64,000 bases of DNA. Source: Bacteroidales bacterium (GTDB taxonomy: Bacteria > Bacteroidota > Bacteroidia > Bacteroidales > P3). Each line of letters begins with the position of its first letter. The first letter of the stretch is position 1. The notes beneath the pieces are model-generated. The model made no database searches. It was not told the DNA's origin and was given only the letters and a program-made list of their open reading frames with translations. The position numbers were made by a program, and so were the translations under genes. Below, one piece after another: positions 24,142 to 63,573 of this stretch. Where the stretch lies: contig JAFVCE010000015.1 of the NCBI GenBank assembly GCA_017479385.1, forward strand, positions 62,001 through 126,000, in the 5' to 3' direction.

Positions 24142-24149
24142 TACCTTTG
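24142..24149 (+). promoter_or_regulatory. -7 promoter box upstream of RNA element A
   Basis: TACCTTTG matches TAnnTTTG; CTTG at 24122-24125 is a weak -33. Transcription would start near 24156, about 70 bases before the conserved part of RNA element A. Confidence 0.5.
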
Positions 24150-24224: not shown

Positions 24225-24463
24225 ACATAATTGAGCGGACGCTCTTGTTCTCCTGTAGAAAAGCTGGTAACTTTCAAAGAACGAGAATAAGAAAGCGCGA
24301 GTTCACGTCAGGGGCGTGAATTTTCGTGACACTTATTAGTTCTAAGGTATCACCAGCACCTTCTACAGTAATAAGGCAGTTTTGACGAAAGAATCACGCC
24401 TTTCTTCATGCCCCTTAATTAGCAATAGTGTCCTGCTTATAACAATAAGCAGGGAAGCCGAAA
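24225..24463 (+). ncRNA. Structured RNA element, copy A (family not recognised)
   Basis: Begins with a 28-base stretch identical to copy B, including the small hairpin GAGCGGACGCTC (24233-24244). Then a long imperfect hairpin: CTGTAGAA (24253-24260) pairs with 24361-24368; an AA/ACC internal loop; GCTGGT (24263-24268) pairs with 24352-24357; AGAAC (24278-24282) pairs with 24339-24343; AATAAG (24286-24291) pairs with 24332-24337; top hairpin TTCACG/CGTGAA (24302-24320). A 3' domain follows (GGCA with TGCC, GAAAG with CTTTC) and a last hairpin CCTGCTTAT/ATAAGCAGG (24432-24453). It ends 60 bases before the lipoprotein gene at 24523. Copies B, C and D keep the pairing with different bases. Confidence 0.7.
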
Positions 24464-24522
24464 ACTGCACTATAGAGTAGGCAGAAAAAAAGTTGCGCAC
24501 GACACGAAATAGTGTATAAAAA

Positions 24523-24894
24523 ATGAAAAAAATTATTACAATCATCGGTGTAATCATTGTTAGTCTAAACCTGACCTCATGTGAAGCAGTGTTATATGGT
24601 TTACTTTTGGGGGCAACTATGGTCACAACTCCGGCTTACACACCCACGTACACTGCACCAACATACACGTCTCCATCCTATTCAAGTCCTACCTATACTC
24701 CAAGTACAACCACACCATCCTCTTCTTCATCCTCACAAAAGGATTGTCAAAGATGTTTGGGGAGTGGAAAGTGTCAGATATGCAATGGTAAAGGTTGGTA
24801 TACACAGTTAGGCATTGGTAGCGGAACTCATAACTGCACAAGTTGTAATAAAACAGGAAGATGCAGTGTATGTGGAGGCTCGGGGAAGAGATAA
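24523..24894 (+). CDS. Small lipoprotein with CxxCxGxG zinc-finger-like repeats
   Basis: A 123-residue protein. The signal peptide ends in lipobox LTSC (about residues 17-20). A Thr/Pro/Ser/Tyr-rich low-complexity linker (about 35-75) is followed by four DnaJ-type motifs: CQRCLGSG, CQICNGKG, CTSCNKTG and CSVCGGSG. In DnaJ, paired CxxCxGxG motifs bind zinc; finding them on an exported lipoprotein is unusual, and the function is unknown. The secreted protein at 62414-63106 has eight such motifs, and both genes lie just after copies of the same structured RNA. Sequence here is AT-rich compared with the core genes. Confidence 0.75.
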   Translation: MKKIITIIGVIIVSLNLTSCEAVLYGLLLGATMVTTPAYTPTYTAPTYTSPSYSSPTYTPSTTTPSSSSSSQKDCQRCLGSGKCQICNGKGWYTQLGIGSGTHNCTSCNKTGRCSVCGGSGKR

Positions 24895-25370
24895 ACCCTC
24901 TCAACCACGATATTATTTCTATAGCGACCTCATTGACATTCCTTCTTAGGTTACAATTGGTTGTGCATTTTTAATAAACGTTTCAACTCAAAGCAGAGAG
25001 GGTATTTTATGACTTTCTGAAGAAGACGTTTCAGCAAATTGTGCAGAGGATACCGTTATCGCCGTCTTGAGAAATCACAACACATACTGGATGTCCAAGG
25101 ACATCGAAAAGGAAAACACGGTTAGACTCACCGATGTGTAGACGGTGTTGGTATCGACAACAGCCACCACATTACTGAAAGATACACCATTAAATCCAAC
25201 TACATCGGCACGGTCTACACTTGTATTGCAATACTCGAAGATTGCGAGGAGAAATCCGAGGATGTGACGCACGACCAAAATGGGCTGTGGCGACTCTAAC
25301 GAAAGGATATTTCTTTGAGATAGAAAAAAAATGGCACAAAGAAGTCTCAAAATACCAACATTATTACAGA
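24895..25370. other. Gene-free stretch, probably decayed coding DNA
   Basis: No intact gene. On the plus strand a short readable piece (VIAVLRNHNTYWMSKDIEKENT, from about 25030) stops in frame at 25138-25140 and cannot be matched to a family by eye. I see no RNA structure like elements A to D here. Confidence 0.35.
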
Positions 25371-25400
25371 AAAAGCGAGGCCAAATGGCCTCGCTTTTTT
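25371..25400. terminator. Bidirectional terminator
   Basis: Stem AAAAGCGAGGCC (25371-25382) pairs with GGCCTCGCTTTT, loop AAAT, with T runs on both strands. It follows the stop of the PIN pseudogene on the minus strand. Confidence 0.85.
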
Positions 25401-25447
25401 ATAGTAAAGGCATATTTTACTTCACCTATTCTTGATTGGTATCGTCA

Positions 25448-27966: not shown

Positions 27967-28215
27967 TACATAATTGAGCGGACGCTCTTGTTCTCTGTGA
28001 GTAAATAGTCTGGAAAACTCTTTTACAACGGAATGAGAATAAAGTTGCGGAAGTTCGTGCTTATGGCGCGAATCTTTCTCCACTTATCATTCCAAAGGTA
28101 AATTTCCAGACAACCTACTCACAAGATAAGTGGCAATCAAATAGCAGAAAGGATTTGCGCCTTTCTTGTTGCCCTTAAATATCGGCTTCTCGCTCAATGG
28201 CTGGAAGCTGAAATT
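27967..28215 (+). ncRNA. Structured RNA element, copy B
   Basis: Starts with the 28 bases shared with copy A (hairpin GAGCGGACGCTC at 27976-27987). The main hairpin keeps copy A's layout with different bases: TGTGAGTA (27996-28003) pairs with 28116-28123; internal loop; GTCTGGAAA (28008-28016) pairs with 28103-28111; GGAATG (28030-28035) pairs with 28088-28093; top hairpin TTCGTG/CGCGAA (28054-28072). The 3' domain has GGCAA with TTGCC (28132-28136 with 28168-28172) and AAAGG with CCTTT inside. A last hairpin CGGCTTC/GAAGCTG then TTTTATTT resembles a terminator. It lies 65 bases before the secreted-protein gene at 28280. I see no clear promoter for it. Confidence 0.7.
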
Positions 28216-28279: not shown

Positions 28280-28816
28280 ATGAAGAGAATAATAATCATG
28301 TGCATCACGTTTTTGTGCATTGGAAATATTTATGCTCAAAAACTAGACTATAAATACTGGGATATGACTGGCGATTATGCATACGCTCACAAAATCATCA
28401 TCCCGACGAAAAGTAATCTGATAACTCTCGTTGATTTATCACAATCGAGTTTTATTTCACTGATGAAACAATATGGCTATTTTCAAGATTCTGATGTAGT
28501 ACCTTCAGACTATACTTTCTCTGCATTTTGTAATTATAGTATTGACTTTTTCATGGAGCCCTTAAATGGATATGGAACAAACACTATAGAACATAGTGAA
28601 ATTCGGAAATGCGTTCGGTTCATTGGTAAAATGAATAATCTTTCTCCGCGCAATGCGATAACTAACCTTGTAAAGGAGTTACAAGAATACTATACCAAAA
28701 AGGTTGATGGGAAGGACTGTTTTGTGATACCGACTCAACAAGGAGGTGGGTACGTATTCCTAATAGGGATGTCAAACGGTTTCTATGTAGTGGAATGTAT
28801 GCATTTAAATAAATAG
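28280..28816 (+). CDS. Uncharacterised secreted protein
   Basis: A 178-residue protein with signal peptide MKRIIIMCITFLCIGNIYAQ. I do not recognise the mature part, which is mixed alpha/beta (for example IIIPTKSNLITLVDLSQSSFISLMKQ, then AITNLVKELQEYYTKKVDGKDCFVIPT, and a C-terminal GGGYVFLIGMSNGFYVVECM that looks like paired strands). Only two or three Cys. It follows structured RNA element B directly and is followed after 40 bases by a short frame of the same strand. It is exported by the general secretory route; whether it stays periplasmic cannot be told. Confidence 0.6.
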   Translation: MKRIIIMCITFLCIGNIYAQKLDYKYWDMTGDYAYAHKIIIPTKSNLITLVDLSQSSFISLMKQYGYFQDSDVVPSDYTFSAFCNYSIDFFMEPLNGYGTNTIEHSEIRKCVRFIGKMNNLSPRNAITNLVKELQEYYTKKVDGKDCFVIPTQQGGGYVFLIGMSNGFYVVECMHLNK

Positions 28817-36512: not shown

Positions 36513-38681
36513 CTACTTAACCACCACAATGCGGCGGGCGGGGGCGTTGCCAACCTTGACGAGGTAGGCGCCCGTGGCGGGGACATCGAGGGCGATTGCT
36601 TGGCTGTTTGACTGTTTGATGGCCAAAATACGGCCTGCGGCGTCATAGAGGGTAACAATGTTACCTTCGGCATTCTCGACCACAACACGACCAGATTCGG
36701 GGTATATCACGGCGCTCGCGAGGTCTACGAGGCCGATACCTGTTGTGGTGGTGTCGTTTACCTCGAAGTAGGCGGTGAAGGTTGTGTCGGAGGTGACGAC
36801 CACCGTGCGCTCGGCGTTGGTGTCGTTGTCGTTCCAACGCAGGAAGTGGTAACCCTCGTTGGCAATGGCGCGTATGGTGGCGCTATCGCCTTCCTCCACT
36901 TCGCTGCTACCCGTTACCGTGCCCATCAACTCGTCGTCGCTCGCTACGGTGAGCGTATAGTACACCACCTCGTTGCTATCGTAGGCCAAGAAGTATGCGG
37001 TGAGGGTAGTGTCGGAAGTGATTGTTATGGTGCGCTCGGCATTGGTACTTCCATCGCTCCAACGAGCAAAGCGATAACCGTTATTGGCAACTGCCAAGAT
37101 TTCTATTTGTGGCGATTCACAACTGGGCGTTCCTGTTGTTTGTACATTTCCCATTGTGGAATCTGAAGTGACAACATCGAAAGAATATAACATCTGCTCC
37201 TGTATGTTGCAAACTCCCCAATCTGAATTCTGATAAGCTGCTTCGGCCCCACACGGGACATACAGGTCGACATTTTCCAAGTTGGGAAATGACGACCTGC
37301 TCAGTTGAGGGGGTTGCGGACTACGCGATACTATCGTTTCTATATTCATTGCTTGATAGAATGCATCGTTGTGAATAGATGTGATATGGCTACCCAGGAT
37401 TAGTGTGGTTAGTTCTGTTAGATTGCTAAAGGTATATGAAAAATTCTGCACACTGTTGCCAAGGCACAAAAAGGAGATTCTGTTCGATTCATCGAATATA
37501 CGCCCTCCCTCCATATTCACGGCCACGGCATTGCAATAAACAGAGTCTATATTTGTGCAACCTTCGAATGCGTAGCCATCACATTCAGTTAAACCTGTAC
37601 CGATTGACACTTTCGTTAGTCCGCTACATTCTCCAAACGCATTGTATTCTATATGAGTAACTGCATCAGGAATCGTAATGGTCGATAGATTTGAGCACCC
37701 ATAAAATGTAAGCTCTGGAATAATAGTGACGGAATCTGGAATTACAATGCGTGATAAACCTGAGCATTCTTGAAACAAACCTCCGACCCAATGTGCAGGC
37801 TCAAAGGAAGTGATAGTGTTGGGGATGTCAATCGACGTTAGACCGCTACAGCCTATAAATGCACCTTCGCCAATGCTCGTTACTCCGTAGGGGATATTGA
37901 TAGACGTCAAGTTGGAACAGTATGCAAAGGCTCCCATTGCAATGGCAGAAATGGAGCTGGGGATAACGGTGTTTTGACAGCCTGAAATAAGCGTATTTGT
38001 TGATGTCTCAATAATCGCATGGCAATCTTCACGGCAGTCATAAGCAGCATTCGCTTCGGATACAGATATAGAGGTTAACGCAGGACATTTGGCAAAGGCT
38101 AATGTGGCAATATCAGCCACCCCATCTCCAATAGAAACAGAGGTGAGTTGTAAACAGCCTTCAAAAGCCTGAGTACCAATGCTGGCATTGGCTATGATAA
38201 TGGATTCGAGCCCAGTGTTTTGAAATGCCATACTACCAATTGACGTAACCCCGCTGGGTATTTCGATAGAGGTAAGCGAGATGCAGCCTTGGAATGTCTC
38301 GTTCCCTATTGTAGTGACTGATGACGGGATGTTGATAGACGACAACGCAGTGCAGTTTCGAAAAGTTCCCCCTATTATTTCGGTAACAGATTCAGGAATA
38401 CTGACGGACGTCAAGCTGTCGAGGTCGCTAAAATAACCAATACTTGTAACAGGAATGTTTTCTCCATCTATATGAAGGATTGATGAAGGGATAACGAGTG
38501 CGCCAGTAGGCCCGTCTATATCAATTGCGGTAACCATGGCTTCCCGAGGATAGTTAGTACTAATGTAATAGCGTAAAGTTTGCCCCGACGGTGCTGTGCA
38601 CAGCCAACTGCTCGAGAGGGCATTTGCATTTAAGGTTAGCAGCATTATTGCCGCTGCAGCTAAAAGTGTTTTTTTCTTCAT
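36513..38681 (-). CDS. BspA-like leucine-rich-repeat protein with T9SS sorting domain
   Basis: A 722-residue protein with a signal peptide ending at NANA. From about residue 75 to 480 it consists of LRR_5 (BspA-like) repeats of about 23 residues (SVTTIGNETFQGCISLTSIEIP and similar). Two beta repeats of InlB-B type follow (ILAVANNGYRFARWSDG, IRAIANEGYHFLRWNDN, about 520-650). The C-terminus is a T9SS type A sorting domain (NIVTLYDAAGRILAIK, TGAYLVKVGNAPARRIVVVK), so the protein is exported by T9SS and attached to or shed from the surface. BspA relatives bind host or microbial surfaces. Structured RNA element D lies directly upstream. Confidence 0.88.
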   Translation of the reverse strand: MKKKTLLAAAAIMLLTLNANALSSSWLCTAPSGQTLRYYISTNYPREAMVTAIDIDGPTGALVIPSSILHIDGENIPVTSIGYFSDLDSLTSVSIPESVTEIIGGTFRNCTALSSINIPSSVTTIGNETFQGCISLTSIEIPSGVTSIGSMAFQNTGLESIIIANASIGTQAFEGCLQLTSVSIGDGVADIATLAFAKCPALTSISVSEANAAYDCREDCHAIIETSTNTLISGCQNTVIPSSISAIAMGAFAYCSNLTSINIPYGVTSIGEGAFIGCSGLTSIDIPNTITSFEPAHWVGGLFQECSGLSRIVIPDSVTIIPELTFYGCSNLSTITIPDAVTHIEYNAFGECSGLTKVSIGTGLTECDGYAFEGCTNIDSVYCNAVAVNMEGGRIFDESNRISFLCLGNSVQNFSYTFSNLTELTTLILGSHITSIHNDAFYQAMNIETIVSRSPQPPQLSRSSFPNLENVDLYVPCGAEAAYQNSDWGVCNIQEQMLYSFDVVTSDSTMGNVQTTGTPSCESPQIEILAVANNGYRFARWSDGSTNAERTITITSDTTLTAYFLAYDSNEVVYYTLTVASDDELMGTVTGSSEVEEGDSATIRAIANEGYHFLRWNDNDTNAERTVVVTSDTTFTAYFEVNDTTTTGIGLVDLASAVIYPESGRVVVENAEGNIVTLYDAAGRILAIKQSNSQAIALDVPATGAYLVKVGNAPARRIVVVK

Positions 38682-38736
38682 TTTGTTGTTATTTTAGTTA
38701 TACGTTACATTTTCCTTCTTTTCGAACAACATATAA

Positions 38737-38996
38737 AAAAGCGCGGGAACAACTTTCTTGCTTATCCCGCATCTCAGGCCTTCGCATTGCCTCTACTACA
38801 GAATAAGCAATGCCGAAGCCCACGCATATTGGAACATACATTGTATGCTGCCAAACCATGGACGAAGTACATTGCGCTATTGCGGTAGTAGGTTTCGAGG
38901 TTGCGAAGTTCGAGATGCCGCAGACAAACGCCGTTACAACGTCTTTCTTAATATGTCCTGTCGCCCGCCCTCACCCCGAAAGGCTCCGGCTAAACG
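38737..38996 (-). ncRNA. Structured RNA element, copy D, with promoter and terminator
   Basis: On the minus strand from an ideal promoter (39003-39034) the RNA has a 5' segment, then a hairpin of the same design as A, B and C: GCATCTCG pairs with TGAGATGC and CTTCGCA with TGCGAAG, flanking an AA/GCC internal loop (plus-strand positions 38902-38918 and 38769-38786). Above it CTACTAC pairs with GTAGTAG (38885-38891 with 38793-38799). The conserved GATAAG follows the hairpin. It ends in stem GCGGGA/TCCCGC and a T run (38737-38770), a rho-independent terminator. The leucine-rich-repeat gene starts 56 bases later and has no separate -7 box that I can see. Confidence 0.72.
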
Positions 38997-62413: not shown

Positions 62414-63106
62414 TTATAACCGACCTCTACCCTTACATAATTGACACCTACCAGTCCCTCTACAAATTCCACAATCTACCAAACTTCCATCAAAAGAAGA
62501 CCTCGATTCACCACGGCCTGCACAACTGTTGCATTTGCCACTGCCGCTACACACACCACATTCGTCATAGGATTTAGAACCAGAGGAATTTGAATTGTTA
62601 TTATAATCAGTGCCACCAGAAGGCATATAACCAGGATTTCCGCTATTCCCTGAACCCTCAAGAGAAAAAACATTACTCCGATTTCCGAAGAGGCTGATGT
62701 ATCCCAATTTTTCTTTTCCATTAATCATTGTGATCGCAGGCAATTTACCTGCTCCACCGCAAATTATACAGATTTGTTTTCCTGTAGCGCTGCAAAAGGA
62801 GCATGGCTCCATCATCATTATTCCAATGACGTAATTGTAGGCCATTTTACCTCCTTGACCATAACATATAGGACACGACTGGCCTCCTTGTCCATAGCAT
62901 ACATTACAATTTTTGATTTTAATAGACTCTACCCATCCGCTGCTATACTCATACCGATAGAACTCTCCGTCGTAAGATGATGATACGACTCTCCCAACTC
63001 CATTGATATACTTTGAGTGACTATATTTTTGGTGTACATCCATATAGTTCTGTGCGCTGCATGATAAAGCGATGAAGGTGGCAAATACTGTTATTATACT
63101 TTTCAT
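62414..63106 (-). CDS. Secreted protein with eight CxxCxGxG motifs
   Basis: A 230-residue protein starting MKSIITVFATFIALSCSAQ; the ATG at 63133 would add nine poor residues. After the signal peptide come eight DnaJ-type motifs in two clusters: CNVCYGQG, CPICYGQG, CSFCSATG, CIICGGAG, then after a Gly/Asn/Ser linker CGVCSGSG, CNSCAGRG, CGICRGTG and CQLCKGRG at the C-terminus. Paired motifs could bind zinc; export of such a domain is unusual. It is related in layout to the 123-residue lipoprotein at 24523 and, like it, follows a copy of the structured RNA (element C). Confidence 0.75.
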   Translation of the reverse strand: MKSIITVFATFIALSCSAQNYMDVHQKYSHSKYINGVGRVVSSSYDGEFYRYEYSSGWVESIKIKNCNVCYGQGGQSCPICYGQGGKMAYNYVIGIMMMEPCSFCSATGKQICIICGGAGKLPAITMINGKEKLGYISLFGNRSNVFSLEGSGNSGNPGYMPSGGTDYNNNSNSSGSKSYDECGVCSGSGKCNSCAGRGESRSSFDGSLVDCGICRGTGRCQLCKGRGRL

Positions 63107-63144: not shown

Positions 63145-63366
63145 TTTCTCACTTGTGCCACAATGAGCAAACCAGTACAAAGCGTGGCCGATTACCACTT
63201 CTTTGACTGAAGGTCGTGAGAAAAATTACCTGTGAAGAAGATGTAGCAAACAGCCCACGCTAATACGCGCGAAGCCGTTATTGCACACACTTGCTTCTTG
63301 TTGAAAATTTCTCACGTTTTCAGTCACAAGTCGAGGCATAACGCTCCGTGATTTCGCTGTCGAAAT
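63145..63366 (-). ncRNA. Structured RNA element, copy C
   Basis: On the minus strand, from a consensus promoter. The main hairpin has the same plan as A, B and D: TGACTGAA pairs with TTCAGTCA and CGTGAGAAA with TTTCTCACG, with an AA/ACC internal loop (plus-strand positions 63308-63326 and 63204-63223). Above it AAGAAG pairs with CTTCTT (63294-63299 with 63235-63240), the bulge AGGTA is kept, and a top hairpin TTCGCG/CGTGGG follows. A 5' hairpin GGAGC..CTC lies at 63333-63347. The 3' side begins AAGAAGTGGTAATC, like copy B. The gene for the secreted CxxC protein starts about 40 bases later. Confidence 0.7.
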
Positions 63367-63372
63367 CGAGTG

Positions 63373-63404
63373 CAAAAATACACACATTTTTGGACATGGC
63401 CAAA
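63373..63404 (-). promoter_or_regulatory. Consensus promoter of RNA element C
   Basis: On the minus strand TTTG (63401-63404), 20 bases, TATTTTTG (63373-63380). The spacer is 16 of 20 identical to the element D promoter. The remaining bases to 63573 contain only the leader of the transketolase C gene. Confidence 0.8.
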
Positions 63405-63573
63405 TTTATTTTCGTTTTGCATGAAAATAGGCGTATGGCGAGGGCAATAATATTGTTAAATTCTCGTTAAAGTAGAGAATATTTTATAGTTGCCATAAAG
63501 AAGGTACATGGAACCCACGAAGAAGTACCGTCGAGAGAAACATTAAAACAAAAACAAATAAAACATCAATATC

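Follow-up and report, generated by a model that had tools for sequence, protein, structure and literature searches.

Candidate portable attenuators in gene leaders of Bacteroidales: a recurrent structured element with two predicted folds

Four copies of one structured element, named A, B, C and D, are found in the window, that is, in the whole stretch of 64,000 nucleotides of Bacteroidales DNA that was analysed. They are homologous and have one common architecture. The element contains sets of complementary strands and a U-rich 3' side, a promoter box is enriched upstream of it, and it recurs before unrelated genes. It is probably a portable attenuator of 5' leaders, in other words a conditional terminator, often equipped with its own promoter. 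The folded RNA occurs in 101 of the 295 sampled genomes of the order, often in several copies, and its core has no match in Rfam. If it is a conditional terminator, a single device would control many accessory genes, including those of surface repeat proteins, lipoprotein-like proteins and small ORFs. Bacteroidota are abundant in the gut, and to our knowledge few RNA regulators are known for this phylum. The many homologues make the structure and the switching open to direct testing.

From 5' to 3', the element is composed of a leader strand, S1, AA, S2, a linker, S3, strand a, the top hairpin H, strand b, S3', AGGY, S2', RCC(Y), S1', a trailing strand, the X1' strand and a U-rich stretch, after which comes the start codon. 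In A (plus strand), a promoter-like TAnnTTTG box (TACCTTTG, an exact match) is located at 24142–24149. The modelled RNA core (24242–24378) is matched by two covariance models presented below (R1, 122.2 bits, E = 1.8e-25; R2, 114.9 bits), A being in both training sets. The core begins with the leader strand (24242–24252), complementary to strand a (24283–24291). The 5' arms of S1 (24254–24260), S2 (24263–24268) and S3 (24278–24282) pair with 24361–24367, 24352–24357 and 24339–24343, respectively, and all three stems show covariation. Hairpin H occupies 24301–24327; its 3' arm (24314–24327) is also complementary to X1' (24385–24400), giving helix X1, and strand b (24332–24337) is complementary to the trailing strand (24370–24375), giving helix X2. 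X1' and the U-rich stretch (24385–24406) would be the 3' half of a terminator-like hairpin. The downstream ORF (24523–24894, 123 aa) has a lipoprotein-like start by eye and no Pfam family above cut-off.

B lies on the same strand, with its core at 27985–28133 (R1, 108 bits; B is also in both training sets) and stems S1 at 27997–28003/28116–28122, S2 at 28008–28016/28103–28111 and S3 at 28030–28035/28088–28093. Its X1' strand and U-rich stretch (28146–28167) are followed by an ORF of 178 aa with a signal-peptide-like start by eye (28280–28816; no Pfam family at E ≤ 0.01), and no TAnnTTTG box was found within the upstream stretch searched. C and D are on the minus strand. C is preceded by two TAnnTTTG boxes (63401–63408 and 63373–63380, within 63373–63408). 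Its core (63195–63337) contains S1 (63319–63325/63205–63211), S2 (63308–63316/63215–63223) and S3 (63294–63299/63235–63240), and is followed by X1' (63182–63189) with a short U-rich stretch (together 63177–63189) and by an ORF of 230 aa with a signal-peptide-like start by eye (62414–63106; no Pfam family at E ≤ 0.01). In D, the core (38758–38930) contains S1 (38911–38918/38769–38776), S2 (38902–38908/38780–38786), S3 (38885–38891/38793–38799) and helix X2 (38801–38810/38758–38767). X1' (38741–38747) is complementary to 38819–38825 and forms, with a U run, the stretch 38733–38747; the downstream ORF (36513–38681, 722 aa) encodes a BspA-type leucine-rich repeat protein (LRR_5, E = 6.2e-71). Two other features of the window were recorded: a weak R1 match beside C on the opposite strand (63403–63528, plus strand, E = 0.068), and a GC-rich hairpin between A and T runs at 25346–25404, terminator-like on either strand (sub-threshold Rfam alignments).

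The common architecture had been proposed in the first-pass annotation, and the stems that it gave are indeed present in the four copies, which fold better than shuffled sequences (z = −5.4 for A, −6.8 for B, −5.0 for C, −4.8 and −5.7 for two stretches of D). The elements are real but larger than first described. A top hairpin had been assigned to A, B and C only; these three have it, but so does D, where it is long. Because the likely 3' end is that of the X1' strand and its U-rich stretch, the start codons lie 52–117 nt beyond the element, and not 40–70 bases as formerly stated. All four ORFs have export-like starts by eye, in agreement with the exported proteins announced earlier, but a restriction to such proteins does not hold across the family, whose downstream genes are diverse. 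Finally, the AGGYA segment had been taken for a single strand. AGGY is complementary to RCCY below S2 in the four copies (AGGT/ACCT in A, B and C; AGGC/GCCT in D), yet this pairing taken alone is not significant: the own partner is better in 51/101 rows of the swap control described below, no pair reaches significance, and the pairing was not retained.

Using BLAST, relatives of A were found in 42/99 genomes and 2/41 genera. R1, a covariance model of the 142-position core built from 68 sequences, all from the genus except one (L078), has matches at E ≤ 0.01 in 64/99 genomes and 12/41 genera. The second model, R2, was built from 100 matches, including A and B. At E ≤ 1e-4, it has matches in 57/59 genomes of the genus and, within the order, in 101/295 genomes and 69/184 genera; across the phylum, 30/296 genomes and 14/140 genera have matches at E ≤ 0.001, the window's own genome being counted in each case. 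Copies per genome are lower bounds, the candidates scored per genome being 10 for the phylum and the order, 32 for the 99-genome set and 54 for the genus. As a control, 50 kb of E. coli gave a best R2 match of 12.2 bits (E = 1.2). C was found by R2 (49.6 bits, E = 1.2e-8) though it belongs to neither training set, C-type relatives being in that of R2. D is matched by R1 only (E = 0.023), with no R2 match at E ≤ 1. D-type relatives exist, however: BLAST finds them in 37/59 genomes of the genus, and the window's own genome has seven D-type BLAST matches, including a pair separated by about 100 nt on a single contig. Of 20 D-type loci, R2 matches 14 at E ≤ 1, and for ten of these E is below 1e-4. 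The order of helices in the D-type alignment is the same as in the other copies.

Several observations accompany this survey. One contig (G429:C66) has two equal-scoring copies in the same orientation, 1.1 kb apart (1263–1399 and 2388–2524), possibly a tandem duplication of the element plus its gene. Fragmented genomes, G074 among them, have many copies at most a few hundred bases away from the end of a contig, which suggests that repeats stand beside them. The antisense strand of many copies is also matched by R1 or R2, up to 47.9 bits; the RNA is therefore quasi-palindromic. Contigs labelled archaeal and myxobacterial that carry the leader pattern (L196, L221) were discarded, with no R2 match at E ≤ 1.

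The covariation of S1–S3 was evaluated using our own R-scape-like statistic and null alignments that preserve the phylogeny. When 68 sequences were aligned with MAFFT, without fitting to structure, 10 pairs surpassed the whole set of 60 null alignments; nine belong to S1–S3 and the tenth to a mini-stem surrounding the S2 loop, and four further pairs have E < 1. In A8, an alignment of 101 rows fitted by covariance model, the pairs with E < 0.05 are 7/7 in S1, 6/8 in S2 (one untested) and 5/5 in S3; one S3 extension pair and one mini-stem pair are also significant. A8 derives from 100 chosen sources, same-genus loci with strong antisense matches being left out, and columns with more than 40% gaps were dropped from its test, which placed one S2 pair outside. 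It leans towards S1–S3 through its model, a bias from which the 68-sequence MAFFT alignment is free. A significant column pair, 38–148, was rejected as a base pair, being an echo of two pairs with a common partner. Each of the four Watson-Crick types is represented at every pair of S1 and S3, the share of G-U among pairs is only 2.3% in S1, 0.1% in S2 and 1.4% in S3, and there are 90 distinct S1 sequences among the 101 rows. Judged by comparison of homologues, the S1-S2-S3-H hairpin, hereafter fold I, is demonstrated by the covariation of S1–S3. The selection on folding that had been claimed from four loci thus holds with many homologues and with 18 model pairs of S1–S3 at E < 0.05 on the CM-fitted alignment; the covariation check with more sequences, here by the in-house test, did yield significant pairs. 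In the strict test on A8, the leader helix, X2, a-b and H contain no pair that is significant individually, which we would ascribe in part to the low variation of these strands and to shifts in their register. As aligned, strands a and b of fold I are paired in only 43% of cells.

The helices that would compete with fold I were compared by a swap control, in which the duplex energy of a strand with its own partner is set against that with partners from other copies, over 101 rows. The leader helix, X1 and X2 are used by neither R1 nor R2; the pairing of strands a and b is used by R2. The own partner is better for the leader with strand a in 99/101 rows, for the 3' arm of H with the X1' region (X1) in 86/101 and for strand b with the trailing strand (X2) in 78/101. 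The corresponding values are 71/101 for the two arms of H and 69/101 for strands a and b. No significant preference for the own partner was seen for the 5' arm of H with the downstream strand (42 of 101), leader with trailing strand (57), a with trailing strand (53), leader with b (32), S1 with S3 (37), S1' with S3' (27) and S1 with RCC (28); the average for swapped S3 is artefactual, as the strands concerned form no duplex. Within clades, p < 0.05 is reached by the leader helix in three of four groups and by X2 and X1 in two of four each; three of the negative strand combinations, repeated in the same way, reach it in 0/4. Moreover, the leader helix, X2 and two mini-stems jointly beat slid partners (X1 lies outside the alignment) and exceed nearly all column shuffles on four of five measures. 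The putative leader helix, X1 and X2 are thus supported by swap controls, not by single-pair statistics. A further pairing, P4, which would join the flank of X1' to sequence lying beyond it on the 3' side, seemed persuasive by eye in certain lineages; it was rejected at 51/101 in the swap control and at 32/54 (p = 0.10) in a subset.

The 3' side resembles that of an intrinsic terminator. The mean number of T is 6.3 in the 9 nt after X1' and 2.0 in the 9 nt before; within the 9 nt past X1', a run of at least four T is present in 58/101 rows and absent from 43/101. A hairpin followed by a U run thus stands at the end of the leader, as in attenuators that use an intrinsic terminator. H and X1 have the 3' arm of H in common, so that the alternative fold would exclude the terminator. 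The mean energy up to X1' is −59.6 kcal/mol for fold I, −60.3 for the unconstrained minimum and −48.4 with the arms folded apart. Fold I is about 11 kcal/mol more stable on average, and the alternative (fold II) is lower in 1/101 rows, in a calculation that credits no inter-hairpin contacts. When the right arm is folded alone, X1 forms (at least five closing brackets in X1') in 100/101 rows.

The following scheme can be proposed. Transcription would start upstream, at the TAnnTTTG box where one exists, and the nascent RNA could adopt two mutually exclusive folds. In fold I, S1, S2, S3 and H would form one long hairpin; X1' would be left free and RNA polymerase would read into the gene. In fold II, the leader would pair with strand a, and the 3' arm of H and strand b with X1' and the trailing strand; the resulting hairpin and the U-rich stretch after it would constitute an intrinsic terminator. 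The choice between the two folds would hinge on the 5' arm being free in time, and the deciding factor could be a bound protein, an antisense RNA or pausing of the polymerase. Capture of the 5' arm would make the terminator the natural outcome, and with this arm free, fold I would prevail at equilibrium; hence the attenuator reading, in which we infer the occurrence of termination, its conditional nature and a trigger of this kind.

TAnnTTTG is the consensus of the Bacteroidota promoter box. Among 126 elements, 77 have it on the sense strand in the 150 nt upstream and 49 do not; it is found in 24/126 on the other strand and in 10/126 downstream, 9.9 being expected from base shuffles. Its distances to the element are clustered, with 21 boxes at 38–46 nt and 32 at 75–81 nt (53/77). 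A sense-strand ORF starts downstream in 118/125 cases. It should, however, be noted that ORFs are also common on the divergent side (88/119), and ORF orientation is therefore weak evidence. The 89 downstream proteins considered (out of 100 downstream ORFs) match 50 Pfam families, 46 of which are matched by one protein; the commonest, BspA-type LRR (LRR_5), accounts for seven proteins. A role of these genes in defence was not retained, no PADLOC family matching more than 2/89 at E ≤ 0.001. A family of peptides of about 50 aa (KREYxAPxVEVxxARVERGFxxSG and similar) is encoded 3' of the element in several genomes (L014, L015, L017, L039, L041, L042, L043, L047 and L065). They look like precursor peptides by eye; when five of these ORFs were compared with NCBIfam, a single match, at chance level (E = 0.07), was obtained for one of them, and none at E ≤ 1 for the other four.

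Similar copies often have different surroundings. By a rough identity measure, both flanks are at background in 1992 of the 2208 pairs of similar copies for which the two flanks were available, and copies up to 94% alike occur among such pairs. Some similar copies do have a downstream gene in common (L014/L017 and L143/L150, for example). In 10 aligned pairs, the similar region comprises the core together with the X1' stretch, and in 4/10 it also takes in a TAnnTTTG box; no terminal inverted repeats or target-site duplications were recognised in these pairs, the limits of similarity being set by eye only. Since similar copies stand before unrelated genes within background-level flanks, the element acts like a portable unit, which in some cases includes its promoter. 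At another locus (L274), an rteR sRNA (RF04181, 79.6 bits, positions 20–102) lies about 1.4 kb from a copy, which suggests a conjugative-transposon setting for that copy. Carriage by phages or plasmids was considered and set aside for A (no match in plasmid or phage collections), L250 (no phage match) and L246 (no plasmid match). L250 and L249 match one plasmid, that of Rhizosphaericola mali, where R2 scores 89 bits and the copy precedes a gene for a hypothetical protein. Leader patterns of the A type, the L250 type and the D type (a pattern that matches D) were absent from viral contigs; the L125-type pattern occurs in five, which were rejected as none matches R2 at E ≤ 1.

The same data can be read differently. 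An independent, trans-acting small RNA (about 180 nt) that has a promoter and a terminator of its own and does not target the adjoining gene is unlikely, though it would account for the promoter box and the terminator-like 3' side, for stems that are arbitrary yet strictly complementary, for similar copies adjoining unrelated genes and for several class-level loci at which the next ORF (at least 45 aa) starts more than 200 nt away. However, the box is not enriched in the 150 nt 3' of the element (10/126, against 9.9 from shuffled upstream sequence). Moreover, in 26 of the 100 rows with an ORF, no more than 40 nt separate the T run (or, where no run was found, an assumed end) from the start of the first ORF, which leaves little room for a separate promoter, although a small number of these starts seem spurious.

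A riboswitch-type leader sensing a ligand or a protein, with the S1-S2-S3 region as its aptamer and the same terminator, has the plan of terminator riboswitches, in which a conserved upstream fold overlaps a terminator-like hairpin. It appears improbable, because S1 and S3 are arbitrary in sequence, the downstream genes have no common pathway (50 Pfam families among 89 proteins) and, by eye, few strongly conserved nucleotides beyond AA/RCC and AGGY are left unexplained by a helix. There is a comparably small chance that the element is a self-addressed riboregulator, in which private Watson-Crick stems would allow the arms, or the terminated leader acting in trans, to recognise their own gene only. 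If so, a barcoded switch and a terminator, often with a promoter, would travel as a unit and provide orthogonal control of the adjoining gene.

Whether the selected molecule is RNA or single-stranded DNA had been left open in the first-pass annotation. G-U outnumbers A-C in the leader helix (123:28), X2 (67:11), H (140:2), S1 (16:1) and S3 (7:1); the ratio is reversed in S2 (1:10) and in mini-stem mA (4:13), and weak for S1–S3 pooled (24:12). The large excess in the leader helix, X2 and H favours RNA of the gene's strand over single-stranded DNA. From their pair composition, most helices look selected as sense-strand RNA; S2 and the mini-stem do not show this. A DNA-level palindrome, be it a target of site-specific recombination, a hairpin of the REP or attC kind or arms whose complementarity is maintained by template switching, is consistent with the nearly exclusive Watson-Crick pairs of S1–S3 (G-U 0.1–2.3%), A-C above G-U in S2, the antisense matches, the unrelated flanks of similar copies and the many copies near contig ends in fragmented genomes, but is very improbable given the strand preference of wobble pairs in three helices, which REP or attC hairpins would lack, the T-rich 3' side, the promoter box mainly on one strand and the internal loops that stay mismatched between stems, unlike what palindrome correction would leave.

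Comparison with catalogued RNAs places the attenuator reading in context. The family had not been recognised at first, and its core is indeed without a match in Rfam: no family was found at E ≤ 5 for the cores of A and B or at E ≤ 0.05 for those of 20 further loci across the family, C's included, and a scan of the window at gathering thresholds gave no match on D's core. The tail of A, however, does match a recognised family. That scan returned a tRNA and, on this tail, DUF805b (RF02914, clan CL00115; 36.5 against 35.6 bits), with no match in B, C or D. DUF805b, which Rfam classes as Cis-reg, immediately follows the core of A on its 3' side and also stands behind further copies whose genes differ, as at L140 (47 bits). 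It differs in that its 35-position motif is an optional tail only (24448–24483 in A) and leaves the core uncovered; other copies have another hairpin tail or none. No description of the element was recognised in the text consulted from PMC2864571, PMC8040213 and PMC9723704, and one of the candidates that the last two leave without a name may correspond to it.

Among known systems, terminator-based attenuators and riboswitch expression platforms use mutually exclusive folds in a gene leader, one of which is a terminator hairpin. The element resembles them by its exclusive folds in a gene leader, one with a terminator-like hairpin; it differs by its arbitrary stems, the lack of a visible common gene pathway and the presence of similar copies before unrelated genes. 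Plasmid copy-control RNAs act through kissing hairpins. As in these RNAs, the element has two hairpins whose complementary loops could extend into a duplex, and its sequence is specific to each copy. In contrast, both partners are in one RNA here, and the copies stand beside many different genes.
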